This document shows positions 7,151-30,492 of a DNA stretch of 64,000 nt, piece after piece (position 1 is the stretch's first letter; each line of letters begins with the position of its first letter). The notes below the pieces were generated by a model. It was not told the DNA's origin. It did not search any database and was given only the letters and a program-made list of their open reading frames with translations. The position numbers and the translations under genes are program-made. This stretch comes from Candidatus Zixiibacteriota bacterium (GTDB taxonomy: Bacteria > Zixibacteria > MSB-5A5 > GN15 > JAAZOE01). The stretch covers positions 1-64,000 of the forward strand of contig JAZGGI010000035.1 in NCBI GenBank assembly GCA_036480375.1, in the 5' to 3' direction.

Positions 7151-7165
7151 TGATAGTGGGGAATT

Positions 7166-10100: not shown

Positions 10101-10579
10101 AGTTTGATAACAATCCGGATGACTGGGATTTCGCAAACGCCCGAGCGTGGGCGCAGAATTTAAACACCGCGCTGGGAACTATGCTCAATGATAAATTCCG
10201 AATTGGCTGCACTACCGCTGCAAATGGTTTTAAAAATATCTATTTGTATTTCGTTCCCCATTATCAGGTTTATGAGCTTGATACCACCGGCAGCGCTCCC
10301 GCTTTTTCTTACGCCGGAGCGGCGCCGGGTGACGCTCATTTTGATTTAAGGATAAAATTCCAAGCCGCGCATAGTGTCGCTAACGCTGGTAAAGTAATAA
10401 ATGCGGATTGGGGGGATCTTGCGGATAGTGGGGCGGATTTGCGCACAAGACTTATTCGGCGTTTGTTCGGCGAAACCGGTACGGGCAATTTGGTAAAGGC
10501 TGATTTTGCAAGAATTGTCGCATGGGTGCAGAATCATTACGGTGACGCTACCCACGCCTATGCTATTAATGATTTATAG
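7166..10579 (+). CDS. Candidate T6SS effector: OmpA-like domain plus metzincin-like protease
   Basis: A 1137-residue protein with no signal peptide. The N-terminus (about 25-120) has the outline of an OmpA-like peptidoglycan-binding domain: IIEFENTLFNDGSSVL, a LVAGHYDAG strand, then an N/R-rich helix with RAKSILYLLTG. The long middle is not recognised. At 816-826 the sequence HEFGHATGNWD matches HExxHxxGxxD, the zinc signature of metzincin peptidases (ligands H816, H820, D826; catalytic E817). M858, about 38 residues later, is a plausible Met-turn. The zinc motif is seen directly; secretion and target are inferred from the position immediately after the PAAR gene. The lack of a signal peptide fits export by the injection machine. 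The OmpA-like part could hold the enzyme at the victim's cell wall. The lipoprotein at 11693 may protect the producer. Confidence 0.75.
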   Translation: MHGPDVVGVGAEAVADAGGEAEHQIVPVPIDIIEFENTLFNDGSSVLMPDRIDDVEADEPPPPGFALLALAYKQFEMDDRKKMLVAGHYDAGENSALNRSISEFRAKSILYLLTGNKNQWATVSAGHHQIIDYKRIMAYFSGVKGWNCTPPEINNEWADGDDGDGPMVRRFFRRYNRSVSRADRVPNNFHNSINSSENHLWPERAWQVVYDLYIDRIRRALGVRLTELNTLRGMHQYANPAQWLSCADRIPVHADFHDRYRGGDNNCRVEILFFNQDVNVLTCPEAEAVAERFPMCERGGYELNFCDIEDLNAWPYHLKFTYYNRAKNSVEAVINCLEIKAYSGRRRREVENVRQAFQDGVYTVKVPQNRIRNQIHFGFETVPGDPYPPTDTIFLYTDAEDAVPERRALSTAQVTALTALDRQKYYDLPYKWSTRKYWTRYQDGDNLEGARYRQVVRSELRLKPYRNNKTKASESLLFSLDDIVLAKNNRSQQVKDLRPNGTTDRNLSNDSRYALFHIEHRDIAGMPEVAYDLKKLKALRIHNPKADEPSFTNHEFSRNLITDVPDDTRVICFAGKFYDVYDKRSHDRDPNFRFSRNHVLGARLAVLEDTSVHIKKVVDAKNDADARTKNYGLRKRNNLAAVGNYEMHYIHNCAAFNDKMLAYLIIYWSTRLTRVNKSGGRQRGTVADVTNHREEGMNNAMKRSNKDYLIEKHGPPPAPPPPDAEPVPDPHDIIIRPFHFFEVKKSGRGGKAKAVTNIIANTLSSGAASGAWTMPEEAQLRARDYEDDPNYFGTPDPDNALADTDGNTYNVLTNHHEFGHATGNWDDYLYDFEDSSDNNWGDLPRYNQPYTAEGGPYMCDKLSRMRVNRTARMRNFWKFVCWLHDDSADNTKPLYDFFHNTEFKLTCKATDTLTHNFRLEEANRNVAEAARTEINYTIEPDVDCDLLLYKLGDGELSRMIHAGQVFDSILVVRTKLAIKFDNNPDDWDFANARAWAQNLNTALGTMLNDKFRIGCTTAANGFKNIYLYFVPHYQVYELDTTGSAPAFSYAGAAPGDAHFDLRIKFQAAHSVANAGKVINADWGDLADSGADLRTRLIRRLFGETGTGNLVKADFARIVAWVQNHYGDATHAYAINDL

Positions 10580-10596
10580 TATTTAGGGTTTGGATT

Positions 10597-11706
10597 ATGA
10601 GCGATATATATAGTCGATATTTTGCTAACAGCCGCCATGACGGATGGGTGAACCAAAATGTTACCTCTGGGGGAGATATTGCCTGGAGGCGAATTATTAC
10701 CGGCGATGAAAAAGTGTCGGCCGAATCTCGCCTGCTTCTGAGTTCTGATAATCAAATAGTCGTCGATGGAATGCGGAAGATATTCGTTTATTCTTCCGAG
10801 GGTTTACAGCTATGGAAACGCGACAAGTATTACGGGTGTCAGGTAGCGCTGCAAAATGATTTAATCAACTATAGATCAGCCGATTCCGTAAATTTAATTC
10901 ATGCGGTATCGGTGGTTGATGGAAAGAAAGCGCATGATATTTTTCTGTCGGGAATAACCAAAAATTCTGATTTGGTTTTCTTCGAGCCTCTGGAAAAAGG
11001 ACTTGTCGCTCAATTACAATACACATCTTCGCATGATAAGCCTTCTGATGAGATGCTCATCTATCTGCTTACGGGGACCATGCCGGGATTTGATTGGAGT
11101 TGTATATTCAAAGGGAATAGAAGCCCGCTGATACCTCTGGCCGATATTGAAAATCGCCGTTTCGTAACATCTATACAGGGCGAGTTGGTCGTATTTGACC
11201 TCGATAGTCAGAATCGAACGCCCGAGCCTGTCAGTCAGTTTCCGTTTCCGCTTGAACAGCATACCGCCTGGATGAGTTGCGGCAAGGGCGGAAAATTGTA
11301 TTTTGCGGGGTGCGGCCCGAAAGGGCTGGAAGTGGCGATTGCGGAATTTAACGGTGAATTAACGGCACATTCTGAGAATCTTGATATTCCGCCGGTAAAA
11401 CCAATTGCGCCGCCGATTTTGTCGGATGAGCATGTATTTATTCTGACTTCATCAATGTTAATTGCGATTAAGGATGGCGCGGTGGATTGGACTTTTAAGC
11501 CATTGCGCGGCAATTTGCTTTTTGGGACGGCTCTCTCCGACGGTTCAATTCTCGTGGCTTCAACCGATATGGTTTATCATCTCAATGAAGCCGGTGAATA
11601 TTATTTTGAAACGGTCATCGATGAGCCGATCGTGACCCCTCCCGTTGTCGACGGGAATGGGCAGGTATTTGTCGCCAGCAGGGATACTCTCTATGCTATC
11701 GGGTAG
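10597..11706 (+). CDS. Cytoplasmic PQQ-type beta-propeller protein
   Basis: A 369-residue beta-propeller without signal peptide. Repeated four-strand units carry patterns such as VFVASRDTLYAIG at the end and DGSILVASTDMVYHLN before it, as in PQQ-repeat/WD-like propellers. No PQQ-binding or catalytic residues can be assigned. It lies 17 bases after the metzincin-like effector gene and overlaps the next lipoprotein gene by 14 bases, so it belongs to the accessory block. It could be cargo, a docking platform for the large effector, or an effector domain encoded separately. I cannot choose between these. Confidence 0.7.
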   Translation: MSDIYSRYFANSRHDGWVNQNVTSGGDIAWRRIITGDEKVSAESRLLLSSDNQIVVDGMRKIFVYSSEGLQLWKRDKYYGCQVALQNDLINYRSADSVNLIHAVSVVDGKKAHDIFLSGITKNSDLVFFEPLEKGLVAQLQYTSSHDKPSDEMLIYLLTGTMPGFDWSCIFKGNRSPLIPLADIENRRFVTSIQGELVVFDLDSQNRTPEPVSQFPFPLEQHTAWMSCGKGGKLYFAGCGPKGLEVAIAEFNGELTAHSENLDIPPVKPIAPPILSDEHVFILTSSMLIAIKDGAVDWTFKPLRGNLLFGTALSDGSILVASTDMVYHLNEAGEYYFETVIDEPIVTPPVVDGNGQVFVASRDTLYAIG

Positions 11707-12199
11707 TTTATATAAAGTTGGAATCTCGGCGTTGTTGGGTATTTTTTTGATTGGCGGATTAAACGTATCCTGTAAGGAAAACGAGCAAATGCCGGAAAAA
11801 TTGACTTACAAGTTTTCATACGGTCCGAAATTGCAGAAAATCGGGGATAGTCTCACCGTTTCGTATAAGCCTCATTCTACAAACACTCAACGACCTCAAC
11901 CTGAAGATTCGCCGTTGCAGCAAAAAACGGTAACTCTGAGCACCAATGAATTTAAGTCGGTCTGGAAGAAAATAAAAAAGATAGACGTGCCGCGATACAG
12001 CAATGTACCTGATGAAGATTTTGTACCAACTCCTCCGGATGTTAATTACACTGAAAGATTGCGTCTTGTGATTGATGATGAAGTTATAATTGATTGGTCG
12101 CATGAGTTTGGCAGATTAAATGATAAATTGGTTAAACCTTTGAATGAAGTAAATGAAGTTCTGATGGAGTTGTTTAATAAACGGTTGGATGAAGATTAA
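11693..12199 (+). CDS. Lipoprotein, possible immunity protein
   Basis: I take the ATG at 11693, inside the end of the preceding gene, because it starts directly with a lipoprotein-type signal (MLSGSLYKVGISALLG, then LNVSC with Cys27). The lipobox is imperfect at position -3. The 168-residue product has a mature domain of mixed strands and helices containing LRLVIDDEVIIDWSHEFG, a pattern seen in small bacterial proteins of unknown function. Lipoproteins next to T6SS effectors are often periplasmic immunity proteins, and this one follows the protease-like effector and propeller with tight spacing. Immunity is inference from position. TssJ, the T6SS lipoprotein, is smaller and does not look like this. 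Confidence 0.65.
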   Translation: MLSGSLYKVGISALLGIFLIGGLNVSCKENEQMPEKLTYKFSYGPKLQKIGDSLTVSYKPHSTNTQRPQPEDSPLQQKTVTLSTNEFKSVWKKIKKIDVPRYSNVPDEDFVPTPPDVNYTERLRLVIDDEVIIDWSHEFGRLNDKLVKPLNEVNEVLMELFNKRLDED

Positions 12200-12246
12200 G
12201 ATAGATTAAATTTTTTGGATGAGAAACAAATTACGGGATAGAGGAA

Positions 12247-12681
12247 ATGAAAAACAATATATTCACATTGGAGCTTTCGGATAATTGGGTAGACCGGACA
12301 ACGTTTTTATACATGGGTCTGGAAGACGGCGGGATGCAGCATATTCTTAATTTGAGCGTTGAACCTGAAATCGGCGACGCTGATTTATATGAATACGCCC
12401 GGGAACGGATAGACAATGCCGTTACCGCTATGCCCGACGCCGCGATTATCAAAGAAGAAGATAAGACTCTGCCAAACGGCAACGCCGCTTATGAATGCGT
12501 TTATAAGTGGATATCTCCCGATGGAAAGATGGTATTTCAGAAGTTACTATTTTTAATCATTGAGGGCACCGGATATAATTTTTCGGCCAATTTTTCAAAG
12601 AAAACTCTAAAAACTCTCAGGCATGAAGTGGACGGAATAATAAATTCGTTTCAGCCTGTGCCGCATTCGGATGATGAGTAA
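12247..12681 (+). CDS. Eag/DcrB-like (DUF1795) T6SS chaperone
   Basis: A 144-residue cytoplasmic protein with the layout of the DUF1795/DcrB family: an N-terminal FTLELSDNWVDRT strand-turn, a central helix (LYEYARERIDNAV), paired strands around PNGNAAYECVYKW and a C-terminal helix ending GIINSFQ. In T6SS clusters this family supplies the Eag chaperones, which shield transmembrane segments of PAAR-linked effectors before loading. The placement between effector genes fits a loading role. However, neither the PAAR protein nor the putative effectors here show an obvious transmembrane hairpin, so its client is unclear. A general DcrB-like role remains possible. Confidence 0.7.
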   Translation: MKNNIFTLELSDNWVDRTTFLYMGLEDGGMQHILNLSVEPEIGDADLYEYARERIDNAVTAMPDAAIIKEEDKTLPNGNAAYECVYKWISPDGKMVFQKLLFLIIEGTGYNFSANFSKKTLKTLRHEVDGIINSFQPVPHSDDE

Positions 12682-12683
12682 TT

Positions 12684-13589
12684 ATGCCTTTGAAGTTTAC
12701 AAAATCAACCGATACCGAGCATGAAATAACTCTGGATTCTTCGATGGCATCGACCCGATGGAGATCGGGTTCGGCACCCATCGGCGGCAAGGCGGAATTT
12801 GAAATAATAACGGCTTTTGTCGGTAATGGGGCCAAGATAAAAGTGACCGGAAAATCATCAGGCGGCAGTAGTCTGGGAAAAATCTCTTCGACTATAAGAA
12901 ATAATGTTTTTGTCGGCTCGTTTGATATTCCTGATGATGTGGAGGCGGATGAGGAAGTTTACTTTGAAGTGAAACTATCGGCCAATGGTCTTTCCGGGGA
13001 ATCTAATCGAATTCTGGCCCGCCCGCGAATTGTCGTAAGCAATATGCGATGGAGCGCGGAAGAGGCTCGCCGGGGAGATACTCTGAAATTATCGGCTGAT
13101 GTTTCCGGGTGCCGCGATAACGATGAGGCAAAAATCACTATTTATGAATATGACAGTGACGGCGTTCACGACCGCATTTGTGAAATACCTGCCAATATCC
13201 GGGAAAATAAGATTGAAATCGAATGGGAGTATGAATATCACGAGGATACCGATGAAATCCCGACGCAGGAAGAACTTGACCAATACGGAAGCAGCTATAA
13301 TCCACCCGAATACTTTTTTGTAATCGAAATTAACGGGCAGAAATTCGGTCGCGAGCAGGAATCAAAACTTTTGAAATTTAAGGATTTTGTGGAAATAAAA
13401 TTACTCGACGAAGAGGAAGTGCCAATCGCAAACGAGGATTATGTTTTGATTCTTCCGGACGGTAGCGAGAAAAAGGGCAAAACGGACGGCGATGGCAATA
13501 TCCGGATTGATGACGTTCCGCCCGGACGAGTGAGGGTTGAATTCCCCGAGGCAATAGAAGCTGAGGTCTCTGAACCGGAGAGAGATTAA
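12684..13589 (+). CDS. Adaptor-like protein sharing beta modules with the PAAR protein
   Basis: A 301-residue acidic protein built of three beta domains: an N-terminal Ig-like domain (about 15-115), a second Ig-like domain (about 118-230) and a prealbumin/SpaA-like unit (about 235-289). The last two match the tail of the PAAR protein in order and in wording: MRWSAEEARRGDTLKLSADVSG against AKWSKESAKLGDKVKLQADMSG, and an identical VPPGRVRV near the end. It starts 2 bases after the Eag-like gene stop and abuts the LysM gene. There is no signal peptide and no catalytic motif. It probably bridges an effector to the spike. The domain match is seen in sequence; the adaptor role is inference. Confidence 0.7.
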   Translation: MPLKFTKSTDTEHEITLDSSMASTRWRSGSAPIGGKAEFEIITAFVGNGAKIKVTGKSSGGSSLGKISSTIRNNVFVGSFDIPDDVEADEEVYFEVKLSANGLSGESNRILARPRIVVSNMRWSAEEARRGDTLKLSADVSGCRDNDEAKITIYEYDSDGVHDRICEIPANIRENKIEIEWEYEYHEDTDEIPTQEELDQYGSSYNPPEYFFVIEINGQKFGREQESKLLKFKDFVEIKLLDEEEVPIANEDYVLILPDGSEKKGKTDGDGNIRIDDVPPGRVRVEFPEAIEAEVSEPERD

Positions 13590-15110
13590 ATGTGCGATAA
13601 GGATGGATTTCATTACACAATTAGAAAAGGTGATACATTGTCCGGAATTGCGCGGCGCTTCGGTGTCGCTCACTGGCGGATAATATACAATCATTCTGAA
13701 AATGAAGCATTTAAGGCATCTCATCCCGATCCCAATTTAATACATCCCCGCGAAGTAATCTGGGTACCCGGGGTTAAGGCGAATCAAGTTGCGGCGGCCA
13801 GCGGAAAGCGAATTAAAGTAGTCGCACCCCGGCAGCGTCCTGGCAAAAAGCCGATTGCCAGCATAAAATTGGTATCGATTACTTATATAACCGATCATCA
13901 TGTGATGCTGGCTAAGTATGACGATTGGAAAAATCCGCAAAACGGGGATGAACGAAAAAAAATCGAAAAACCCGAGTTTATTGCCGGCAAAAACGATGAT
14001 GAAGCTCTTCCGATAAGCCATACCTGGAAACAGAAAATTAAAATGAAGGTGAAGATGAAGGTTGAGCCGGTAAATTGCCTGTCTGCCAAAGGCAAACTAA
14101 TTGGGACCGGAAAACATCCAGGTTTATCATTTAAGTCGGGGAAAACGAAATTTGTCAGCGGTTTTGTTGAAGTTGTCGTAACGGCTGATGATAAACTTCT
14201 TGAAGAAGTGGGCGTTGTCGAAGATTATGAGATTAAATGGAGTGTTCAGGGTGATGGCCTCAATATACAAGATGCCGGAACGTCCAAGCACGATATATAT
14301 ATAACAACCGGCACCCCTAAAGTGGCTAAAAGCTGGCCGATGGCGAATAATGACGGAAAGAATCATAATTATCTGACAGCCAATCGAGTCAGGTATGCCG
14401 CCTTAATAGCACAAAAGAAAAAAGACCCGCATGAGATTGTAAAATCTATCTGGGAAAGTTATAACGGTTCATATGATTTAAGCGCCAACGGGAATAAAAA
14501 TCCATGGAAACTGGTGGTTGATGATGAGCGGGGTCAGTGTATGACTATTTGTTCGTTTATTGAAAGCGCGGCGGCGATGCTGGGGTTGAAGGGACAGTTG
14601 GTTTTTGTCTGGCCCAGTTTTGCCAAGCCAAAAGGAAAGGGGATGACCCGAAGTCATAACGATTACGCCAAAGCCTGGGCAGCGGCGTCTCCCGTTTATC
14701 AAGAGCAAAAGCGCTCTTCCAGCAAAAGACCTCCCCATTCAGCCAATTCCGAACATCATAAACATTTTCCAAAAGAAATCGTATCCATGGTCGATCATGC
14801 AACTGCGGGAGACGGAGTGACATGGCTGCCGGGGTGGAATACTTATGAAGCGACTTTTAGATTTACGGATAACAAAGTGACAAAATATTATGGCGGCGGC
14901 GGGCCTATTGAGGATTCCCCAAGCGAAATCCTGGAAAAAGTTTGCGCTTTGATTTCCTGGTGCTATTATGTTCCCAAGCCGGGTACGCAATTTTTGTACG
15001 CCCAGACATTTTGCCTGACCGACGGCCAGGAAAGCTGCTTGTGGTGGAGTACGCATCATAGAAATCCCTGGCCGCCTCCACCTATGGCCGCGGAAGTTTT
15101 GCCGGGGTAA
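13590..15110 (+). CDS. LysM protein with possible cysteine hydrolase domain; candidate effector
   Basis: A 506-residue protein without signal peptide. Residues 6-62 are a LysM domain (YTIRKGDTLSGIARRFGV ... VIWVPG), which binds peptidoglycan or chitin-like glycans. The central region is beta-rich and unassigned. The C-terminal part (about 300-430) has GQCMTICSFIESAAAMLG around C317, then a His-rich stretch (H389, H390, H392, H403) and a WNTYEATFRF strand. The order Cys, helix, His and strand is reminiscent of transglutaminase-like or papain-fold cysteine enzymes, but the triad cannot be fixed by eye. The start codon directly follows the preceding stop, and GGAGAGAG lies upstream. A wall-degrading or wall-modifying T6SS effector is a reasonable inference, with the lipoprotein 3 bases downstream as possible immunity protein. 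Confidence 0.65.
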   Translation: MCDKDGFHYTIRKGDTLSGIARRFGVAHWRIIYNHSENEAFKASHPDPNLIHPREVIWVPGVKANQVAAASGKRIKVVAPRQRPGKKPIASIKLVSITYITDHHVMLAKYDDWKNPQNGDERKKIEKPEFIAGKNDDEALPISHTWKQKIKMKVKMKVEPVNCLSAKGKLIGTGKHPGLSFKSGKTKFVSGFVEVVVTADDKLLEEVGVVEDYEIKWSVQGDGLNIQDAGTSKHDIYITTGTPKVAKSWPMANNDGKNHNYLTANRVRYAALIAQKKKDPHEIVKSIWESYNGSYDLSANGNKNPWKLVVDDERGQCMTICSFIESAAAMLGLKGQLVFVWPSFAKPKGKGMTRSHNDYAKAWAAASPVYQEQKRSSSKRPPHSANSEHHKHFPKEIVSMVDHATAGDGVTWLPGWNTYEATFRFTDNKVTKYYGGGGPIEDSPSEILEKVCALISWCYYVPKPGTQFLYAQTFCLTDGQESCLWWSTHHRNPWPPPPMAAEVLPG

Positions 15111-15113
15111 ACT

Positions 15114-15878
15114 ATGCTTCGAGAACTATATTGCCACTCCGTTGGTCGTTCGGTTATAATGGGTTTTCTGGTCATGTTTTTGTTTTTTGGAGCCGGATGT
15201 TCGCAGGAGGAAAAAAACGGTGATAAGGAGAAAATTATGAAATCGGAATGGCTGGAAAATAAATTGAAGTCAAACGGACTCTCATCCATCTTTTTCGAAT
15301 TTGAGGATATTGACTTTGATAGTCTGGGCAAAGGTCCGCGAGCGGCAATACGATCGGCGGAAAGTTGGCAGGAGGATTTATTAAGCGATGATTTTTCGGT
15401 TCCGGCGATCGCCTTAAAAAAAATACATCATAGAAGGGAAAACGAGCCGGATGCGCTGTATTTTAAGTACAAGACAATTGATTTCGGAGTTGAAGTTTGG
15501 CATCAAATGGATATGTTGGTCATTGTACTCACGCCGAATGAATTGACCCTGGAAGAATTTGAAAAAAGTGGATTAAAATCGGAACAAAGACTTAATGGTG
15601 TGGCCCGTAAGTTATTATTAAATTCGGAAAAAATGGAACTGGTGAGAGATGATTACAATAAGGGCGCCTATTTTGGATCGCATAAGAAAATTGAGGATAA
15701 GGAGTTTTATGAGCTCTCTCCGGTGGAATTATTACGCTGGTGGTATACAAAAAACGAAATCGGCTTTGCGGTTCTCAAAATAACTCCGGTAATTGAAGGC
15801 AATATTCCTTCCAGTGCGGGCATGAGCGATCAACAAATTCATATGTGGTTCGATGCCATCGTTGCGAAAAGATATTAA
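15114..15878 (+). CDS. Lipoprotein, possible immunity protein of the LysM effector
   Basis: A 254-residue lipoprotein: the hydrophobic core MGFLVMFLFFGAGC gives a lipobox with Cys29, followed by a charged linker. I keep the start at 15114 because GGGG lies six bases upstream; an inner ATG at 15159 would also give a shorter signal. The mature part is a mixed alpha/beta domain that I do not recognise. It begins 3 bases after the LysM protein stop, a spacing typical of effector-immunity pairs, and ends the accessory block; the next gene has its own promoter. Immunity is inferred from position and localisation only. Confidence 0.65.
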   Translation: MLRELYCHSVGRSVIMGFLVMFLFFGAGCSQEEKNGDKEKIMKSEWLENKLKSNGLSSIFFEFEDIDFDSLGKGPRAAIRSAESWQEDLLSDDFSVPAIALKKIHHRRENEPDALYFKYKTIDFGVEVWHQMDMLVIVLTPNELTLEEFEKSGLKSEQRLNGVARKLLLNSEKMELVRDDYNKGAYFGSHKKIEDKEFYELSPVELLRWWYTKNEIGFAVLKITPVIEGNIPSSAGMSDQQIHMWFDAIVAKRY

Positions 15879-16036: not shown

Positions 16037-17491
16037 ATGGATATTGCCAACTATTCTTCGGATTCACGGGCATTAATAAAAAACGCTCGCGAGATCACAC
16101 AGTCATTTCGTCATCCTGAAATCGAAGTCGAACATTTATTAGTCGCGACTATCCGGCAGGAAGGGTCGCAGGTGGAGTCGATTATCAATCAGCTGGGGAA
16201 GAGCATCGCTTTTTTGGAATCGGTCATCGAGACCCATTTAAAAGATCAATCAAGCCGGGGCTCAACCCGGGAAAAAGTGGCGGTGTCGCCTTCGGTGCAG
16301 GAAGTATTAAACTGGGCTATTGAGGAGAAAACGAAATTATATGACGCGCTGGTAGAACCGGAACACATATTTATCGCCATATTCGACCCCAAATCGCAAC
16401 TGGCACCTTATGTACGGGAAAAGCTCGAAATCACCAAGGAAGATATCTATCGAGCCATCGCCGACAGCAAATCAATCGAGGAGATAACGGCGACAGCCGA
16501 AAAGAAAGCCGGAGCTGCCGCGTCCGAAGAGAAAAAAATATCGGGGACACTGCGATATTGTATCGATTTGACTAATCGAGCCGCGGCCGGTGAATTCGAT
16601 CCTGTGATCGGACGGGATAAAGAAATCCAACAAGTTGTTCAGATTCTTCTGCGGCGGCGCAAAAACAGCCCGGTTTTAATCGGAGGCCCGGGGGTTGGTA
16701 AAACGGCAATCGTGGAAGGTTTCGCGCAGTCTGTAGTCGATGGCGAAGTAGCTGAGGCTCTAAAAGATGTTAAGGTAATGGAACTTGATATGGGAGCGAT
16801 GGTGGCGGGAGCCAAGTATAAAGGTGAATTTGAAGAGAGACTAAAAAATCTTATCGGAGAGGTCGTCAAGACGGCGGGCAAAGTGATTTTATTTATTGAT
16901 GAGGCTCATACTATCGTAGGGGCTGGCGGCACGACCGGCGGAACTGACGCCGCCAATTTATTGAAACCTGCTCTGGCCCGTGGACAAATTCGGCTTATTG
17001 GCGCGACGACCGAAGAGGAATACACCAAGCATTTGGAAAAAGACAAGGCCCTGGAGAGAAGATTTGAAAAAATCCGCATCGAGGAGCCAAACCTTGATGA
17101 TGCTATTCGTATTGCCCGAGGAATAATTTCCAAGTATCAGGAGCATCATAAGATTGAATATACATCCGAGGCAATTATCGGGGCTGTAAAATATGCCAAG
17201 CGGTATTTGAGCGAAAGAAATTTGCCCGACATCGCTCTCGATATAATTGACGAGGCTGGTTCGGAGTTTAGCGTCAAAGAGGAATATGCTAAGAAACATA
17301 TTCCGCTCGTGGAAAAAGAAGCCAGGGATGTGGAAAAACTGATTTCCGAATGCGAAGGCAAGGATCCTGATAAAGACAAGGAAGATTTTGAAAAACTGCG
17401 AATCGCGTTCGATGAATTCGCTCGCAAAGTTGATATGCTTGACGGATACTGGGGACATCGCGTTGAAGTTGCCAACAAGGAGTCGGCATAA
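16037..17491 (+). CDS. ClpV N-terminal half (Clp_N domain and first AAA+ domain)
   Basis: A 484-residue protein. A double Clp N-repeat (about 5-150) precedes the first AAA+ module. That module has Walker A GGPGVGKT (about 216-223), Walker [10 protein letters not shown] (about 283-291) and an Arg-finger region [11 protein letters not shown]. It ends in charged helices like the coiled-coil M region. ClpV unfolds contracted TssBC sheath for recycling and is normally one chain of about 850-900 residues; here it stops at the boundary before the second AAA+ module, which is a separate gene overlapping by one base. Together the two give 846 residues, close to full length. The gene opens the structural operon. 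Confidence 0.92.
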
Positions 17492-17493
17492 TG
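17477..17493 (+). promoter_or_regulatory. Ribosome binding site and TAATG coupling at the ClpV split
   Basis: AAGGAG (17477-17482) lies 8 bases before ATG (17491-17493), whose A is also the last base of the upstream TAA stop. A proper internal ribosome site with stop-start overlap argues that the split is a real gene boundary with coupled translation rather than a sequencing frameshift. Confidence 0.8.
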
Positions 17494-18579
17494 GAAACAA
17501 AGATTAATCTGAATGATCTCAAGGCTGATTATAAGAGCAAAGTAGAAAAGTTAAAAGCCCTCAAGCCGGTTGTCGATAATCTGGAACCCCGGATTGAGGA
17601 TGCCGATATCGCGGCTGTGATTGCCCGTCGGACGGGGATTCCCGTGACAAAAATGCTGACCGCCGAAAAAGACCGCCTGATAAATATGGAATCTTATCTG
17701 TCCAGGAAAATCATTGGGCAGGATCAGGCTATCAAGGTTATTTGTAATGCCATTCGCAAAGCGCGTTCGGGTCTCAAGCTTCCGTATCGTCCGGTAGGAT
17801 CGTTTTTATTTTTGGGGCCGACCGGAACGGGAAAGACCTATTTACCCAAACTATTGGCCGAATTTTTATTTGATGATAAAAACGCGATGGTGCGGTTGGA
17901 TATGTCGGAGTATATGGAGTCACATTCGGTGGCCAAAATGATTGGCGCGCCTCCCGGATATGTCGGGTATGAGGCGGGCGGACTTTTGACTGAAGCGGTC
18001 AGGAAAAAACCGTTTTCGGTGGTGCTTCTTGATGAAGTTGAAAAGGCTCACATGGATGTCTTCAATGTTTTATTGCAATTGATGGATGACGGACGTTTGA
18101 CTGACGGGCAGGGAAGGACGGTTGATTTTTCCAATACGATTGTGGTTTTAACCTCCAATTTTGCCGCCGAGAAAATTCTGGAAGCGGACCGCGAGGGACG
18201 CGACCTTGATATGGAAGAAGTACGGTCGTTTTTATTTTCCAAATTCCGTCCGGAACTGCTCAACCGCCTTAATGATATTATCATATTTCATTCGTTTACG
18301 CAGAAACAGGTAGAGAAAATCGCGGCTTTGGAATTTGAAAATCTGTGCGTATTACTTAAAGACCAGAATATACAGGCGAGTTTATCAAAGAAGGCATTAG
18401 CCAAACTTGCCAAAGACGGTTATACGCCTGAGTTAGGAGCCCGGCCGATTCAGCGAACGATAGAAAAGGATATCATTAATAAGTTATCGGTGGATATCAT
18501 TACCGGAGATGTATCCTCCGGCGATGAGATTGAGATAGATGTGAAGAATAAAGAGTATGTATTTTCGAAAAAGAAATAG
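17491..18579 (+). CDS. ClpV C-terminal half (second AAA+ domain)
   Basis: A 362-residue protein. A short helical lead (1-60) is followed by RTGIPVTKMLTAEK, the usual linker before the second AAA+ ring of ClpB/ClpV. Then come IIGQDQAI, Walker A GPTGTGKT (about 110-117), MSEYMESHSVAKMIGAPPGYVGY, Walker B VVLLDEVEKAH, sensor/Arg-finger region FRPELLNRLNDIIIF and the D2-small domain with GARPIQRTIEK. After Walker A the residues are YLPK where ClpB has ELAK. The chain can bind ATP but has no N-domain, so it presumably works only as a heteromer with the upstream half. Confidence 0.92.
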   Translation: METKINLNDLKADYKSKVEKLKALKPVVDNLEPRIEDADIAAVIARRTGIPVTKMLTAEKDRLINMESYLSRKIIGQDQAIKVICNAIRKARSGLKLPYRPVGSFLFLGPTGTGKTYLPKLLAEFLFDDKNAMVRLDMSEYMESHSVAKMIGAPPGYVGYEAGGLLTEAVRKKPFSVVLLDEVEKAHMDVFNVLLQLMDDGRLTDGQGRTVDFSNTIVVLTSNFAAEKILEADREGRDLDMEEVRSFLFSKFRPELLNRLNDIIIFHSFTQKQVEKIAALEFENLCVLLKDQNIQASLSKKALAKLAKDGYTPELGARPIQRTIEKDIINKLSVDIITGDVSSGDEIEIDVKNKEYVFSKKK

Positions 18580-18609
18580 AGATTAAACTTAAATAAAACG
18601 GAGGATTTG

Positions 18610-19053
18610 ATGGCCAAATTTATTCTGGGCGCGACTGAAAAGATAAAGCGCGACGATTCCATCCCGGTGGAATTACTCCCCTCCAACAAACTTCTTTATG
18701 CGGCGAAACTGAACAACGATGAAGACGCCGACGTGACTCCGGTGCGGTGCAACAATCTCAAAGAAGTTTTCGAGAAATATCGTCCGTCTTTTTCGGTCGA
18801 GATGGATTCCACGGATGGGGAACAGGTCAATGCCGATTTCGAGATTAAGGCGATGAAAGATTTCGGCAGTAAGCAACTGATTGACCAGAATGATTATTTG
18901 CAAAAAGTGTATTATGGGAAAGAGATATTAAATGATCTCGAAAAACAATTGAAGAAAAACAATTCCCTGAAGAAAACTCTGGCGGACAAAGACAAGAAGG
19001 AAGCGCTTCTAAAACTCGCCAGGTATTACATTGACCTGTTAAGCGAAGAATAA
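18610..19053 (+). CDS. tssB: T6SS contractile sheath small subunit TssB
   Basis: A 147-residue protein. The ATG at 18610 is preceded by GGAGG; a TTG just upstream is less likely. It shows the TssB pattern: an early VELLPSNKLLYAAKLN strand, NNLKEVFEKYRPSFSVEM, and a C-terminal helical pair rich in Lys (KNNSLKKTLADKDKKEALLK). TssB pairs with TssC to form the cytoplasmic sheath whose contraction drives the Hcp tube outward. The next gene, 16 bases downstream, is tssC, the universal order. It is short beside proteobacterial TssB (about 165-170), closer to Bacteroidetes-style forms. Confidence 0.88.
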   Translation: MAKFILGATEKIKRDDSIPVELLPSNKLLYAAKLNNDEDADVTPVRCNNLKEVFEKYRPSFSVEMDSTDGEQVNADFEIKAMKDFGSKQLIDQNDYLQKVYYGKEILNDLEKQLKKNNSLKKTLADKDKKEALLKLARYYIDLLSEE

Positions 19054-19069: not shown

Positions 19070-20506
19070 ATGGGCGAAGAAGAAAAAAATGAAATGCAGC
19101 CGCAGCAGGCTGAAACCGCCGATGCCGCACCCCAAAAGGAAGCGGTTGAGATAGAAAAGATTTCCGATGAGGAATTCGCATCTATTTTGGGCGAGAATTT
19201 CGGCGATTATAAGAAGTTATCGGCTCTAATGCCGTCGTTTAAGACTCCGGATGGCGATCTGGTTCGAGGGGTTGAATGGTTGGATCCCAAGAAGAGTTTC
19301 CAGCGCAAGGAATTTCTGAACAAGAAAGATTTCGCGGGTCAGCGCAAGCTTTTGGCGCAAAGGCTGGACGCTTGGATTAACGCTCTCGCCGCCGATGAAG
19401 CGGACGATGATAAGCGCAAGAAACTCAGCGAAAAATCGGCCAAGCTGGAAGAGAATCTTAAGAAAAACATGAAGAAAGTGCATCGTGCCAACCGCGAAAT
19501 CGAAACAACGTATCGGGCAATTGATAAGTTTTTTGCCAATGCGCAACAGGAACCGGATGAAAAGGTAAACGCTTATTTCGTTAATGCCAGCGCTGAAGAA
19601 TTGGCCAACCCTGATGACAAAGAGAAATTTGAGGAAGTTTCCAAGGCGGTCGCTGATTTGTACCGGGAATGGAGTATCAAAGAATGTTTCTCGATGGCTG
19701 TCGTTCCGGGATATCTGGGGAGCGTTGAAAATATTGACGGTTTCGCTCGGATGCTGGGACTTCCCAATAAAGTCCATGTTATGACCGATTTACCCGATTT
19801 TGAATCGGTCGATGAGGTTATGGATATGCTTGACGATCCTAGTTACGCCAGTCTGGCCGGAATCGACGATTATAAGCAATACGTATCGCTGTTCGCCAAC
19901 TATGTTCAGGCCAGAGCCGCCAATGAATATGAGGATGAAGATATGTGGATACCGCCCTCGGCGGTCGTGGCCGGCAAGATGTATCAGGGCGATACGACAG
20001 CGGGTATGCAGCAGCCAATGGCCGGATTTAAACACGGTAAGATAGCCGACGCCAAGTACTTACGGTTTAAGGCTAATCAACCGGATGCCTCCAAGATAAA
20101 TGAAAAGGGCGTTAATCCAATGGTTAGTTTTGAAGGTACGGCGGTGGCAATGGGTGCCGCGACGCTGTTTACCAAAGAGACGTTCAATATATATTCGATT
20201 CGCCGGACTTATGATTATGTGTACAAGACATTGAGAAATTATCTGAATAAACAGACTTTTTCGGTTATTGATCAGAAGTTTGTCGATACTATGCGTCGCG
20301 ATATCGACAAATTCATGAAGGCCATTTCGGGCGGGGATAATATTTTGCAGGATTACAGAGTTGAGATTTTCGCCGATGATGAAATGCGTAAACGCCAGGA
20401 GATCGATATCAAGGTTGCTCTTAATCCCAAATATCCGGCGCGGACTTTCAATATTGAATTCACAGCGTGGAATGAGGATAACGCAACCAATGTGAAGGAT
20501 AAGTAA
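19070..20506 (+). CDS. tssC: T6SS contractile sheath large subunit TssC
   Basis: A 478-residue protein, close to the family's usual 490-500. After an acidic, Gln/Ala-rich start it has a helical N-terminal part, a central section PGYLGSVENIDGFARMLGLPNK, SLFANYVQARAANEYEDEDMW, PPSAVVAGKMYQGD and the C-terminal sheath domain with FNIYSIRRTYDYVYKTLRNYLNKQTF and DYRVEIFADDEM. The conserved C-terminal domain interlocks with TssB to build sheath rings. The ribosome site GAGGTGAGG is good. The usual SSEF(A) wording is replaced by IPPSAVVAG, which shows distance from the proteobacterial family. Confidence 0.9.
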   Translation: MGEEEKNEMQPQQAETADAAPQKEAVEIEKISDEEFASILGENFGDYKKLSALMPSFKTPDGDLVRGVEWLDPKKSFQRKEFLNKKDFAGQRKLLAQRLDAWINALAADEADDDKRKKLSEKSAKLEENLKKNMKKVHRANREIETTYRAIDKFFANAQQEPDEKVNAYFVNASAEELANPDDKEKFEEVSKAVADLYREWSIKECFSMAVVPGYLGSVENIDGFARMLGLPNKVHVMTDLPDFESVDEVMDMLDDPSYASLAGIDDYKQYVSLFANYVQARAANEYEDEDMWIPPSAVVAGKMYQGDTTAGMQQPMAGFKHGKIADAKYLRFKANQPDASKINEKGVNPMVSFEGTAVAMGAATLFTKETFNIYSIRRTYDYVYKTLRNYLNKQTFSVIDQKFVDTMRRDIDKFMKAISGGDNILQDYRVEIFADDEMRKRQEIDIKVALNPKYPARTFNIEFTAWNEDNATNVKDK

Positions 20507-20545: not shown

Positions 20546-20950
20546 ATGGCACGGAGACCAATTTTGGAGATTGATGGAGTTGTGTACAAAAACGTTTACA
20601 AGGTCGAATATGGCCTGTACACCGCCAAGGATGAAACCGGACGCCCGTCTGACAGGGCCCACGCCGGTGTCATTAAAATAACCCGCGAATCGGATGAAAC
20701 GGTTGATATCGCCCGCTGGGCAATGGATTCGAGCAAGCCGAACTGGAAAGCGGGTAAGGTTACTTTCAACAATCCTGACGATGCGGCGATGAAAGAGCTG
20801 ACCTGGGAAGAAGGATTTATCACTAAGTATGAGGAACAAGTCCCTCATGTTAAAAATAATCCCGAAGATCAGATTTCTGAGTATTTCGAAATATCCTGCC
20901 ATAAATTGACTATCGCCGACGCGGAGATCGACAACCGCTGGCAAGAATAA
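20546..20950 (+). CDS. T6SS inner tube protein Hcp (TssD), Bacteroidetes-like form
   Basis: A 134-residue protein. It has the TssD pattern seen in Bacteroidetes T6SS: a short first strand, YKVEYGLYTAKDETGRPSDRAHAG with the conserved GRPS, WKAGKVTFNNPDD, and LTWEEGFITKYEEQ near the end. Hexamers stack into the tube inside the TssBC sheath and can carry small effectors. A strong AAGGAG site precedes the start. A GC-rich hairpin with a T-run follows the gene, probably trimming transcription so that hcp mRNA exceeds the rest. The form suggests relation to T6SS(iii), though the membrane genes downstream differ. Confidence 0.88.
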   Translation: MARRPILEIDGVVYKNVYKVEYGLYTAKDETGRPSDRAHAGVIKITRESDETVDIARWAMDSSKPNWKAGKVTFNNPDDAAMKELTWEEGFITKYEEQVPHVKNNPEDQISEYFEISCHKLTIADAEIDNRWQE

Positions 20951-20963
20951 TTAATCGCATTAC

Positions 20964-20988
20964 CGGGCGGGATTTATTATCCCGCCCG
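20964..20988 (+). terminator. Intra-operon attenuator after hcp
   Basis: CGGGCGGGAT (20964-20973) pairs with ATCCCGCCCG (20979-20988) over 10 bp with a 5-base loop. TTTAACAATTTT follows. It sits 13 bases past hcp and 28 before vgrG. The T-run is interrupted, so partial termination is more likely than a full stop. Confidence 0.65.
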
Positions 20989-21016
20989 TTTAACAATTTT
21001 ATCCACAGGCCGCATA

Positions 21017-22798
21017 ATGGTGAGTGAAGAAGAAGAATATTCCGATAACGAAAAGACAATAGATCTATTTTCTGATGATCTCCTTGAAGATGGGGGAGGT
21101 ATTTCGGGTGTTTTTGCGATTAAATTATGGATTGATGGCAAGAAAATCGAAAGCTCCGATATTAACCGAATCGAAATAATCCAGACAATTGATTCTCACC
21201 ATGTGGTAAAGATTGTAATTCATGAATATGGTTTCGATGAGAAAGAAAATGAGTTATCTGATTCAATCGGTTATTCAGATGTTTTGGGAAAGTCGATATC
21301 CTTTGAAGTTGAAATGGAGGTGCCGGATGAACCTAGACCAATTAAGTCAACTTTCGTGGGAATCATAACCAAAACCCAGATAAGAAATAGAATTGATGGA
21401 ATAAATGAAGGCATTATTACTGCACATGGCCCGACAATAGCAATGGACGGGGCCAGGCACAATAATTTTTTCATGGATCAGAGTGCATCCGATGTAATCG
21501 GTTCAATTTTGCGCAATTATCCCATTACTATTGGAAATGTCGAATCGACCGGCGGTCAAATGAAATATTGCGTTCAATATCGCGAAACTGATTTTGAATT
21601 TATTATGCGTTTGGCATCCGGTTCGGGATTGTATGCATATTATGACGGTGAAAAATTCAATGTCGAAAAGGCCCATCAATCAAACACCATAGAATTGGCC
21701 TGGCGATATACCTTGGGCGGCTTTGTATATGGTTGGGGAACGGCATCGGCCGAGTTTACATCGTCGGTTTATAACTATGAACAGAAAAAAACATTTGATC
21801 AGGATTCGAAATCATTACCAACCCAATCTTCAATTTCCGAGACGTCCAAGAAAAGCACGGAAGCATCCAAAAAAATATATACGGAATCCGGATTTAGCGA
21901 TGCTCCCAAATTTGTAGCAGACGCTCAAGGGCTCGACAAAGTACTGCAAAACGAGAGAAATAAAGCTATAGGAAAGATGATTTTATGTCAGGGCACCTGC
22001 AGCCACCCCCAGATAGCTCCTGGAAAATGCGTCAAGGCCGGTGGCTTGGGTAAACTGGACGGCACTTATTGGGTCACCAAAGTCCATCATACTTTTGGAG
22101 CGGGCAGCTATACCAATAAATTTGAGTGCACACCGGTTGATGTCGCCTTTCCCAAATCGCATTCGGCTCGAGCGTCGGTAACCAATCTACAAACGGCCGA
22201 AGTAGTCGATAACATTGATCCGGATAAAATGGGTCGCATCAAGGTCAAGTTCCCGTGGAACGCCGACGACACCATCTGGATTCGGGTCGCCGTACCCCAT
22301 GCCGGGCAAGACCGCGGCTGGTTTTCTGTACCTGAAATCGGCGATGAAGTGTTGGTCGGTTATGAACAGGGATCGCCTGATTTACCGATTGTAATCGGCT
22401 CCCTGTATAATAAGGATAACGCGCCGCATAGCGATACCGGCACGGATGATAATAGTGTTAAGGGTTTTATAACCAAGAGCGGCAATAAAATTATTATTAA
22501 TGATTCCGGCGGGGGGGAACAGATCGGGATAATTGCCGCCGATGGAAGCCAGGTGATTATTGATTCCGGCGGTCCGTCGATTACGGTTGAGACAGACGGA
22601 GACGTGACCATAAAATCGAAAAATATTACACTCAAGGCTGACAGCAAGATTGTACTGGATGGCGGCCAGATTGAAATCAAATCCGGTGGCGATATTAAAT
22701 CCGAGGCGAGTATGAATATGGCAACCAAGGCCGGTATTGAATATAAAATAGAGGGAACAATGGTTACCGTAAAAGGAACCCCGATACAATTAAATTAA
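21017..22798 (+). CDS. T6SS spike protein VgrG (TssI)
   Basis: A 593-residue protein. Residues 40-370 form the gp27-like base, including VQYRETDFEFIMRLASGSGLYAYYDG, a signature of VgrG and phage gpD. Residues about 390-480 form the gp5-like OB-fold with DPDKMGRIKVKFPW, WIRVAVPHAG and EIGDEVLVGYEQGSPDLPIVIGSLYN. The end is a repetitive beta-helix needle (VTIKSKNITLKADSKIVLDGGQIEIKSGG). It forms the trimeric spike on which the PAAR protein sits. There is no C-terminal effector domain, so cargo must be attached through PAAR or adaptors. It lies between hcp and the baseplate genes. Confidence 0.92.
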   Translation: MVSEEEEYSDNEKTIDLFSDDLLEDGGGISGVFAIKLWIDGKKIESSDINRIEIIQTIDSHHVVKIVIHEYGFDEKENELSDSIGYSDVLGKSISFEVEMEVPDEPRPIKSTFVGIITKTQIRNRIDGINEGIITAHGPTIAMDGARHNNFFMDQSASDVIGSILRNYPITIGNVESTGGQMKYCVQYRETDFEFIMRLASGSGLYAYYDGEKFNVEKAHQSNTIELAWRYTLGGFVYGWGTASAEFTSSVYNYEQKKTFDQDSKSLPTQSSISETSKKSTEASKKIYTESGFSDAPKFVADAQGLDKVLQNERNKAIGKMILCQGTCSHPQIAPGKCVKAGGLGKLDGTYWVTKVHHTFGAGSYTNKFECTPVDVAFPKSHSARASVTNLQTAEVVDNIDPDKMGRIKVKFPWNADDTIWIRVAVPHAGQDRGWFSVPEIGDEVLVGYEQGSPDLPIVIGSLYNKDNAPHSDTGTDDNSVKGFITKSGNKIIINDSGGGEQIGIIAADGSQVIIDSGGPSITVETDGDVTIKSKNITLKADSKIVLDGGQIEIKSGGDIKSEASMNMATKAGIEYKIEGTMVTVKGTPIQLN

Positions 22799-22806
22799 CG
22801 GCTTCT

Positions 22807-23181
22807 ATGGAAAATTTAGCGTTACCTTTTGTTTTGCGGGAAGGATACCTCGACCGCGCCAAGCTTGATGAATCGATTAAGTTTTCAATCGGATTAATCC
22901 TGTGCACGCGGCGCGGATCACTACCTTTTGAACCTGATTATGGCAGTGATATCTGGGAAAAGGAATTTTCGGATTTGCTGACCGCCAATAAGGCCGATAT
23001 CCGATCCAATTTGCGAAACGCGTTAGATAAGTATGAAAAAAGATTGTATAATATTTCTGTTTCGCTGGTGAGAATTGACGGTGCCACGCCGCACTCGGTG
23101 AGTATGGCGATTAAGGTTACCGGCAATTACAAAGAAGACAACGAAGAGCAGAAATTTGAGGCGAGTTATCTACTGGGGTAA
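22807..23181 (+). CDS. tssE: T6SS baseplate protein TssE (gp25-like)
   Basis: A 124-residue protein of gp25/TssE size. It has the family course: SIKFSIGLILCTRRGSLPFEPDYGSDIWE, where the GSxPFxPDYG segment is characteristic, and a later helix (RSNLRNALDKYEKRL) followed by strands. TssE is part of the baseplate wedge with TssF and TssG and starts sheath polymerisation. The gene is 8 bases after vgrG and 3 before tssF; its own ribosome site is weak, suggesting coupling. Confidence 0.88.
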   Translation: MENLALPFVLREGYLDRAKLDESIKFSIGLILCTRRGSLPFEPDYGSDIWEKEFSDLLTANKADIRSNLRNALDKYEKRLYNISVSLVRIDGATPHSVSMAIKVTGNYKEDNEEQKFEASYLLG

Positions 23182-23184
23182 AAT

Positions 23185-24873
23185 GTGAACGATAAATCCG
23201 AAGCCATACGTCATTCAAAATCCAAATCACAAGAGGAAATTTTTGCCGAGATGCATCGGCAATTGCGGGCTTTTGACAATACCATACCGGCCGCTCCGGA
23301 ACGGATGGATCCGGTCATGAGGATATTACTCCAGTTATACGCGCAGCAACTGGAAAGAATTGACGGTCGGCTGGATATGGTCTGGGACGTGGCCGTCAAT
23401 ACTCTGATCCGGTCAATGTGTCCGGAAAGTATGCGCTGGCCGGTTCCGGCGTTTACGGTTATGAAGTGCAAAACTAAAGACCCCTTAGTTCAGGTTGATA
23501 TCCATACCAAATTTTTTTATAAAGAAAAGCGTGAAGGGGGGCAGACGTTTTTCTTCTCACCGCTTAAAACCGAAAAATTGCTGGATGTCCGCATTGATAA
23601 AGTATTTGTTCGTGTCGATGACAATCTGGTCGATTTATCTCCTGTAAGCGAGGAAGAAATGTCGTCAACGTCCCGGATAAGAACGTCATTTCCGGCAGGA
23701 GCAAAATATCAGATATATATTGGACTCGATTATTCGGGATCCCCGGTTGATTTGACAGGAAGCACGATTTTTTTGAGCGGCATCCCCAATGTTCTCAAAC
23801 AGCTTCGCTGGGCCTGGTGGTATCCCGGGTCGAATTTTGGTTCGTTTCAGGAAGACTGCGGTTTTTGCCCCGGTTTAACCAGTTCGCTGGAATCGATTTT
23901 CGCCGAGAATGGCAGTTATTCGGATTGGGGAGGATTGCGGAATAGCTCGGAGTTGTTCAAATCTCTGGAAGACAGTTTTATTGTCCTTCCTGAAAATTTT
24001 GCATCGACCTGGGAGCTGGGGCCCGCCGATCCGGAACTGGTTGATTTGGCCGAAAAAGATGGATTGCGTGATCTTGATGATCTGGAACATTTATACTGGA
24101 TACGCCTCGATTTACAGTCGGGTGGCGATAAAGCACGATTACAATCATCATTTGAAATAAATTTCGATAGTTTTATCGCGGTCAATAAAAACGATTTGAC
24201 GCTCTTCAAACATACCGGCGGGAATCGTTTGGTGGAGGTGGAATTGCCCGAGGATTTATCCAGTATTCTCGAGATTACCAGTGTTGTTGATAGTCATGGG
24301 CGAACTTATACTCCGCGTCATTTGATTACGCAGTCATCTGATAGATTTTATTCACCGGAAGAGCGCAATAACCGGCTTGTTTTATGGTTTGATTTTCCGT
24401 CGGAACTTGAACTTCCTCCGGAATCGATAACGGTCAACTATTCTGTCACTGCCGGGATTGAGGCTAATGGCATTGAGGCGGGGATGATCGAGGAATTATA
24501 TGAGAACCATCCGGGGATTGATTCAGCCATTAATATAATTCCGGTCAATGGAGCGATTCCGGCCAAGACCGAAAAACAAATAATGACGGAGGTGGCGGCC
24601 AGGTTGCGTAATCGGGATCGGTCGCTGAGTTTTTCGGGGATTTCAAGATGGGCGAAGACTTTTGATCCGCGAATTGTGGGCGCCGAGTGTGAGAACGGTA
24701 TCGAGCGATTGAATTCCGGCGTTCGAAGATGCATTATCGCAAAAGTTACGGTAAAAAAGGATAAGTTTTATTCCGAGGATGAAATTGAGCTTCTCAAGAC
24801 GAGGCTGGCGGCTTTCCTGAAATCCCGTTCGCCTGTAAATACGCACTATCGGGTGGAGATTATTCCGGGATGA
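23185..24873 (+). CDS. tssF: T6SS baseplate protein TssF
   Basis: A 562-residue protein. The start is GTG, with GGGG six bases upstream overlapping the tssE stop. The early part has MRILLQLYAQQLERIDGRLDMVWDVAVNTLIRSMCPESMRWPVPAFTVM, corresponding to the N-terminal region of TssF (VasA, gp6-like). The end contains MTEVAARLRNRDRSLSFSGISRWAKTFDPRIVGAEC, as in gp6/baseplate J-type wedge proteins. TssF and TssG make the wedge around VgrG. Length (family about 580-620) and position between tssE and tssG support the call. It overlaps tssG by 4 bases (ATGA). Confidence 0.85.
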   Translation: MNDKSEAIRHSKSKSQEEIFAEMHRQLRAFDNTIPAAPERMDPVMRILLQLYAQQLERIDGRLDMVWDVAVNTLIRSMCPESMRWPVPAFTVMKCKTKDPLVQVDIHTKFFYKEKREGGQTFFFSPLKTEKLLDVRIDKVFVRVDDNLVDLSPVSEEEMSSTSRIRTSFPAGAKYQIYIGLDYSGSPVDLTGSTIFLSGIPNVLKQLRWAWWYPGSNFGSFQEDCGFCPGLTSSLESIFAENGSYSDWGGLRNSSELFKSLEDSFIVLPENFASTWELGPADPELVDLAEKDGLRDLDDLEHLYWIRLDLQSGGDKARLQSSFEINFDSFIAVNKNDLTLFKHTGGNRLVEVELPEDLSSILEITSVVDSHGRTYTPRHLITQSSDRFYSPEERNNRLVLWFDFPSELELPPESITVNYSVTAGIEANGIEAGMIEELYENHPGIDSAINIIPVNGAIPAKTEKQIMTEVAARLRNRDRSLSFSGISRWAKTFDPRIVGAECENGIERLNSGVRRCIIAKVTVKKDKFYSEDEIELLKTRLAAFLKSRSPVNTHYRVEIIPG

Positions 24874-25781
24874 TATATTTCGGCAAAGATAAAATGCCCG
24901 ATTTTTGTCATCGGCATCATCCGTTTCATTATACGACCGCTCTCAATTTGCTTACTCGCATGGGAATTGACATTGATCGGATAAATCTTCTGGCGGTTGG
25001 CGAATATGAGAATTATAAAGGCGAGGTTCTCAATCAGAGTCCGTCTCCGGAATCTGATTTGCGCAAGGATGCGTCGATAACATTAGAGATTGGATTTCTC
25101 AGCGCAGTTGACTTTATGCCTTATCAGTTTTTTTATGGCCTGGAAGGCCGGTTTGCTCGCGGCAATTGGGAGCAGGGCTCCCGGCATTTTATGGCGCCTT
25201 TTGACGGAGCCGTAATTCGCTTTGAATCCAAAACAAGATACCATGCTTTGAAATATAATTTCGGAATTGTCGAACGGGAATATCTGGAAAAGTATTTGGC
25301 TCTTTTCGATTTTGATGTTAAAAAAGAAACGGGAAGCGACAGCGGTCACTCTCTTTGGGCGGCGTTATTGCCTATTTTTAATGAATGGGCTGGGAATGCC
25401 GTCAGTGTTGAGAAAATTCTCCAGGCTGTTTTGGGTTACAAATTTAAAATAATTGAAAATCTCCCGCGCGAATATGAAATTCCGAATGACCTGCGGTATT
25501 ATCTCGGATCGATGACCGGCAGGCTGGGGCGGGAATTGATTTTGGGCAAATCTTTTACCGAATGCGATTCCTGTTATGGCGTACGCGTTGGCGGAATCAA
25601 GCGGGATGAGATTAAAGATTTCTTGCCGGGCAAATCAAAACGGAAGAAATTGGAGACTTTACTTGGCCTATGTATGCCAAGCAATCTGGAATATAAACTG
25701 ATTTTTCAAGTTTCGGACAATCAGACAATCATTGGAGAGAAAGATAATAATGCCATTTTAGGGTATTCGGTTCAGATTTGA
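24870..25781 (+). CDS. tssG: T6SS baseplate protein TssG
   Basis: A 303-residue protein, start codon overlapping the tssF stop by ATGA. Motifs of the TssG (VasB) family are weak but placed correctly: YTTALNLLTRMGID near the start, MPYQFFYGLEGRFARGNWEQGSRHFMAP in the middle, and a C-terminal part with FLPG-like wording. TssG is a wedge partner of TssF and TssK. The assignment rests more on gene order (E, F, G, K) and length than on motifs. About 100 bases follow before tssK, with a possible promoter. Confidence 0.75.
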   Translation: MIYFGKDKMPDFCHRHHPFHYTTALNLLTRMGIDIDRINLLAVGEYENYKGEVLNQSPSPESDLRKDASITLEIGFLSAVDFMPYQFFYGLEGRFARGNWEQGSRHFMAPFDGAVIRFESKTRYHALKYNFGIVEREYLEKYLALFDFDVKKETGSDSGHSLWAALLPIFNEWAGNAVSVEKILQAVLGYKFKIIENLPREYEIPNDLRYYLGSMTGRLGRELILGKSFTECDSCYGVRVGGIKRDEIKDFLPGKSKRKKLETLLGLCMPSNLEYKLIFQVSDNQTIIGEKDNNAILGYSVQI

Positions 25782-25808
25782 CTCAAAGTTAAACATACCG
25801 GCTAAAAT
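25778..25808 (+). promoter_or_regulatory. Possible secondary promoter before tssK
   Basis: TTGACT (25778-25783) overlaps the tssG stop and TAAAAT (25803-25808) follows after 19 bases. A second TTGACT lies at 25827 without a good -10. It might boost tssK and the membrane genes. The spacing is one base longer than at 6021 and 15923. Confidence 0.3.
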
Positions 25809-25878
25809 ATCAATCTGTCAACTTTCTTGACTTAATCAGCCGGCGACGCTAACTTGAAAATGGAATTAAGGCGGAACA

Positions 25879-28259: not shown

Positions 28260-28265
28260 TTGACG

Positions 28266-30464: not shown

Positions 30465-30492
30465 AACCTGTCAAGGTTGAGGAGTTGGTATA

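Follow-up and report, generated by a model that had tools for sequence, protein, structure and literature searches.

ClpV (TssH) is the two-ring AAA+ ATPase that disassembles the sheath of the type VI secretion system (T6SS), and it is normally one polypeptide of approximately 850 aa. In the window analyzed here, a stretch of 64,000 nucleotides from a Candidatus Zixiibacteriota bacterium whose 3.59-Mb draft assembly is 97% complete, the domains of this ATPase are distributed over two adjacent genes, which raises the question of whether the locus carries a damaged clpV or encodes an unfoldase built from two chains. The first gene, clpV-a (ORF1; 16037-17491, + strand), encodes 484 aa comprising Clp_N, the AAA1 core, the D1 lid and the first middle-domain helices, and it was matched by the Pfam families Clp_N (PF02861), AAA (PF00004) and AAA_lid_9 (PF17871). 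The second, clpV-b (ORF2; 17491-18579, + strand), encodes 362 aa comprising a middle-domain helix, the last D1-lid segment, the D1-D2 linker, the AAA2 core and the D2 small domain; it was matched by AAA_2 (PF07724) and ClpB_D2-small (PF10431), and the N-domain is absent from this chain. The clpV-a stop codon (TAA, 17489-17491) and the clpV-b start codon (ATG, 17491-17493) have one base in common, forming a TAATG overlap (17489-17493, + strand) that is a coupling signal of the termination-reinitiation type. Additionally, a Shine-Dalgarno-like AAGGAG, read from the sequence, is located at 17477-17482 (+ strand), 8 nt ahead of the clpV-b ATG. An earlier note on this DNA had described ClpV as two coupled genes, and the frames, the overlap and the ribosome-binding motif all agree with that description to the base.

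The gene order after clpV-b is tssB, tssC, hcp, vgrG, tssE, tssF, tssG and tssK, all on the + strand. The sheath proteins, which are the presumed substrates, are encoded by tssB (18607-19053, PF05591) and tssC (19070-20506, PF17541), and the rest of the T6SS core occupies 20546-27321, where tssF (23185-24873) was assigned by position and synteny only. The markers of the subtype iii (Bacteroidota type) T6SS, TssC family PF17541 and TssD family PF17642, are present, and PF17541 TssC was found in 65 genomes of the window's phylum. As in ClpV/TssH, the N-domain, AAA1, middle domain and AAA2 follow in the same order, the pore, Walker and arginine-finger residues are retained, and the genes cluster with tssB/tssC. 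In contrast to ClpV/TssH, the window pair consists of two polypeptides cut in the middle domain, and its halves score 408 and 306 bits against NCBIfam TIGR03345 (VI_ClpV1), both below the cut-off of 885 bits. A one-chain homologue from Krumholzibacteriota (L045; 684 bits) and one Bacteroidota T6SS ClpV (632 bits) also fall below 885, so this cut-off excludes one-chain ClpVs of this branch as well. The window pair is ClpV by context and domains, although it is neither a single chain nor within the TIGR03345 cut-off.

The split was then sought in 132 genomes of the Zixibacteria/GN15 (Candidatus Zixiibacteriota) phylum, with a cut-off of E < 1e-110 for ORF1 orthologues. We found clpV-a in 55 of these genomes, and the frame was short in every one, with a maximum of 516 aa; orthologue identity was 60-80% with one exception at 44%, and a few frames were cut by contig ends. 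A search for the same split in related genomes was the check that the earlier note had suggested, and the one-base error that it had considered at the junction is excluded, as the split recurs in dozens of independent assemblies, including the single-contig genomes G008, G029, G044, G051 and G055. The 48 distinct junctions comprised 4-base overlaps (n=31), 1-base overlaps (n=11), one 8-base overlap and gaps of 36-75 nt (n=5), such that a tight stop/start overlap (4-nt or 1-nt) was present in 42 and missing in six, and a Shine-Dalgarno-like motif was observed at 40 of the 48. Four of the five gapped junctions belong to family f5 (L123, L124, L144, L145), and a close relative, L055, has a 43-nt gap; the f5 junctions indicate that the two cistrons are real even without an overlap. 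Comparison of the window with its nearest relative (L023), and of one further pair, gave differences in both halves of 11-17%, 5-9% and 49-57% at codon positions 1, 2 and 3, respectively. These third-position-biased differences indicate purifying selection on both halves, as judged from codon-position mismatches only, dS being saturated in three of four comparisons. The split is old and conserved, and it cannot be attributed to misassembly or to pseudogene formation. There is a negligible probability that the pair reflects a clpV that has decayed in one genome, or a frameshift introduced there by sequencing or assembly: the window comes from a single draft assembly, and in a few relatives one half carries an extra break (L007/L029 and G085), but the recurrence in all clpV-a-bearing genomes, the codon-position pattern and the conserved start and ribosome-binding site argue against it.

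The extra breaks themselves are of two kinds: in L007/L029 the clpV-b open frame has just 107 codons, and in G085 (C405) a TAG lies inside the clpV-a match. These are probably draft assembly errors or an alternative clpV-a end. Two records that would have extended the split to other phyla, 'Ignavibacterium sp.' (L046) and 'Calditrichota' (L059), were set aside, as both return the same phylum-sized genome set as Zixibacteria; their record names look wrong, and the genomes appear to belong to the window's phylum. A ClpB-type gene in G029 (L130) was also rejected as a second split, since its frame is ended after 498 codons by an in-frame stop and no T6SS gene was found beside it; it is probably a pseudogene or an assembly error.

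The position of the cut was located by comparison with ClpB and with a structural model. The clpV-a product ends 9 residues past the conserved WGHR (W-x-x-R) motif. Upon alignment with T. thermophilus ClpB (1qvr), the match to chain a ended at residue 459 and the match to chain b started at residue 500, and chain b from its residue 35 matched 4lj4, a separately crystallised ClpB NBD2 construct. One-chain L045 (842 aa) was modelled with AlphaFold2 (mean pLDDT 74, pTM 0.55), and a Foldseek search with this model matched ClpC and ClpB. In the model, the cut corresponds to approximately residue 479, in the 470-484 loop between the middle-domain helices 448-469 and 485-507, and the lid segment that follows sits, with the D1-D2 linker, in the part equivalent to chain b. 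Chain b modelled alone was predicted to have a helix at its N terminus (7-29) and, beyond a stretch of weak prediction, the D2 module (pLDDT 78). In ClpB, the segment directly before the D1-D2 linker is part of the D1 small domain. Because the corresponding segment is encoded by chain b, the cut is placed by alignment and model inside the D1 insertion, between middle-domain helices, and the division into genes does not exactly follow that into rings. PMC4239642 likewise treats the M-domain as inserted into NBD1. The earlier note had placed the cut at the coiled-coil boundary between the rings, which does not agree with this position; its description of one AAA+ ring per gene is correct in that each gene carries a complete catalytic AAA+ core, but chain b additionally starts with a helix of the middle domain and the last segment of the D1 lid (DIAAVIARRTGIP). 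Residues 1-34 of chain b vary, with a mean identity to the window of 0.10-0.36, and residues 35-55 are conserved (0.69), the latter as expected if these residues complete the chain a lid in trans. With the final D1-lid segment on chain b, chain a would have to bind chain b to complete its own small domain.

We also compared the catalytic residues across 43 aligned rows. Walker A is present in the window pair, and the Walker B motifs are FIDEAH and LLDEVEKA. Invariant positions in chain a were Walker A K222, Walker B D288/E289, pore Y261, sensor-1 T325 and the arginine pair R341/R342, which corresponds to R322/R323 of T. thermophilus ClpB; those in chain b were K115/T116, Y157, D181/E182, N223, R259 and sensor-2 R318. 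The earlier observation that both halves keep Walker A and B is therefore upheld, and both halves look active from their residues.

Taken as a whole, these results lead us to propose, with a probability of about 0.82, that ClpV (TssH), the unfoldase that recycles the T6SS sheath, is encoded here in two halves by clpV-a and clpV-b, that these arose by an old fission and that their products jointly form a two-chain ClpV. The most likely form would be a mixed a-b assembly in which 6a+6b make up a double hexamer and unfold TssC. Ribosomes finishing clpV-a would reinitiate at clpV-b and give roughly equal amounts of both chains; the N-terminal helix and lid segment of chain b would dock onto the middle-domain helices of chain a, completing the D1 small domain, and six a-b pairs would build a normal two-tier hexamer. 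The chain a N-domain would recognise the contracted sheath, and TssC would be threaded through both tiers, in a ClpV-like action with one nick per protomer. The threading of TssC by ClpV is reviewed in PMC4632598. The strongest external support comes from T. thermophilus ClpB, which remains active when artificially cut: its NBD1-M and NBD2 fragments, separately made, were active (Beinker 2005, as cited in PMC4239642). Those fragments, too, derive from a two-ring Hsp100 whose division lies close to the end of its middle domain; they differ in being laboratory-engineered and in belonging to the ClpB disaggregase, not to ClpV. The two-chain reading is further supported by the phylum-wide split, the coupled junctions, the purifying selection, the invariant catalytic residues and the T6SS context, and by the collinear one-chain homologue, the location of the cut in a helix-helix loop and the match of chain b to 4lj4. 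It is weakened by the poor conservation of the first 34 residues of chain b and by the junctions that lack a tight overlap.

A dedicated a-b interface is not apparent in the sequence, and separate action of the halves is compatible with it. Chain a could be a sheath-binding ring and chain b an independent single-ring unfoldase or disaggregase like Skd3. Both cores contain all catalytic residues, and single-ring Skd3/CLPB is active (PMC7343390); we nevertheless regard this arrangement as quite unlikely, because the genes are always adjacent and mostly coupled, chain a is without the last D1-lid segment, chain b is without an N-domain of its own, and the pair is collinear with one-chain relatives. 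It is still more improbable, to the point of being very doubtful, that a programmed frameshift yields a full-length fused ClpV in addition to chain a. At 42 of the 48 junctions clpV-b lies in frame -1 with respect to clpV-a, but any overlap of 1 nt or 4 nt necessarily produces this offset. The window junction showed no slippery heptamer, clpV-b is equipped with a start codon and a ribosome-binding site of its own, the gaps in family f5 (36-75 nt) are in varying frames, and one close relative has a gap of 43 nt.

The two-chain ClpV can be compared with one-chain relatives. In Krumholzibacteriota, the phylum of L045, a T6SS ClpV (L045, L101-L106) was found in 7 of 80 genomes with 61-65% identity to chain a; when the one-chain ClpV is compared part by part with the split form, the a part is 59-63% and the b part 75-79% identical. 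Six of the seven have one frame of 841-851 codons, and the seventh is a draft in which the halves are joined and a later frame break occurs. These T6SS loci are syntenic with the window, with TssB/TssC 70-77% identical in the full-length loci, and the one-chain ClpV is collinear with the window pair but forms a single open frame. The distance from WGHR to TGIP is 180 nt in the fused genes, 179-188 nt in the split genes examined and 181-182 nt in the split genes nearest to Krumholzibacteriota, a near-equal spacing that indicates a protein collinear across the junction. One-chain ClpVs were also found in the syntenic, more divergent T6SS of Zixibacteria families f15 and f16 (L140-L143, L147; 815-830 codons) and in five Bacteroidota loci with PF17541 TssC (824-869 codons), and the divergent split ClpVs of family f5 and genome G047 are cut at the same place. 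Single-gene ClpVs in related genomes, which the earlier note had named as counter-evidence, do exist in Krumholzibacteriota and in f15/f16, but every close relative in the window's own clade is split; the one-chain relatives thus bound the trait and do not refute it.

The ClpV tree placed the Krumholzibacteriota one-chain proteins inside the split clade, beside L010, L032 and L153 (98/98). A tree of TssB+TssC+Hcp+TssE+TssF, which has no gene in common with the ClpV tree, gave the same placement with a support of 99 (L027 in this tree is the same gene as L010). This nesting in two trees points to a transfer of a split-clpV T6SS to Krumholzibacteriota, followed by re-fusion of the genes, which is the history we favour. 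Alternatively, the Krumholzibacteriota one-chain ClpV may be ancestral, with Zixibacteria splitting theirs after separation and without any re-fusion, a history that we consider plausible at somewhat less than even odds. It is consistent with AU tests, in which a single clade of the main split rows was not rejected (p 0.168 for ClpV, 0.23 for TssB/C/Hcp/E/F and 0.091 combined), and with the minimum-variance root of the ClpV tree, which lies on the Krumholzibacteriota stem, outgroup-free rooting being inconsistent overall. Against it stand the agreement of two non-overlapping gene sets on the same three split rows and the f5 and G047 split lineages, which branch outside the main and Krumholzibacteriota rows, so that repeated fission at one and the same loop would be required. 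What can safely be said is that the split/fused state changed at least two or three times on these trees, and, where locatable, at the same loop, through re-fusion (favoured), recurrent fission or both. A bolder and rather unlikely extension of the re-fusion history is that a reversible split persisted over most of the T6SS history of the phylum, and that the split genes were then passed to Krumholzibacteriota and re-fused by a 1-2-base indel; when split, the rings would be able to associate and dissociate separately. If true, the split rings would be a control point on sheath recycling that is absent from one-chain ClpV.

We found no published report of a split ClpV in the open-licence literature, where absence is not proof, and no paper there on a Zixibacteria T6SS beyond two in which both terms occur. 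The plastid clpC of eustigmatophyte algae is a known case in which a two-ring Clp/Hsp100 ATPase has undergone natural fission: it is divided into clpN, clpC1 and clpC2, and AAA1 and AAA2 are encoded by separate genes (PMC3999925, PMC4603697). In contrast to the window pair, that ATPase is the proteolytic plastid ClpC, its N-domain is also separate and its middle domain is not identifiable; its split is a plastid-genome event, whereas the window has coupled cistrons of a secretion-system ClpV. The extent to which the rings of double-ring AAA+ unfoldases need to be coupled is a standing question, and dozens of natural two-chain ClpVs, with closely similar collinear one-chain counterparts in the same neighbourhood, offer a direct test of the importance of the covalent ring link in sheath recycling. 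The split also has a bearing on annotation: a pipeline built around a single TssH of about 850 aa can label these systems truncated or ClpV-negative.

Several further features of the T6SS loci were observed. Downstream of tssK, at 27345-31020, lie three genes of 304, 734 and 175 aa with no convincing Pfam or NCBIfam match. The membrane-complex genes of T6SS subtype i are TssJLM. Bacteroidota have five dedicated T6SS membrane-complex genes (PMC10781749). The three window genes, which start at 27345, 28260 and 30493, gave neither a match to a Pfam membrane-complex family (E up to 0.01) nor an NCBIfam match; the 304-aa and 734-aa genes are conserved next to other Zixibacteria T6SS loci, and all three are candidates for an undescribed T6SS membrane complex. 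Upstream of clpV-a, the region 6092-15878 encodes a PAAR protein with Ig-like domain matches, a 1137-aa protein without a family match, a DcrB-like protein, a LysM protein and a 301-aa protein that is conserved, with 54-59% identity in most loci. This gene set recurs near T6SS loci of the Zixibacteria phylum and Krumholzibacteriota, and its members are probably spike, adaptor or cargo genes. In the single-contig genome G078 (L148, L149), the genes from tssC onward lie approximately 1.9 Mb away from clpV-a/b and the tssB at the clpV end is partial, and the cluster appears to have been broken by a rearrangement between tssB and tssC.
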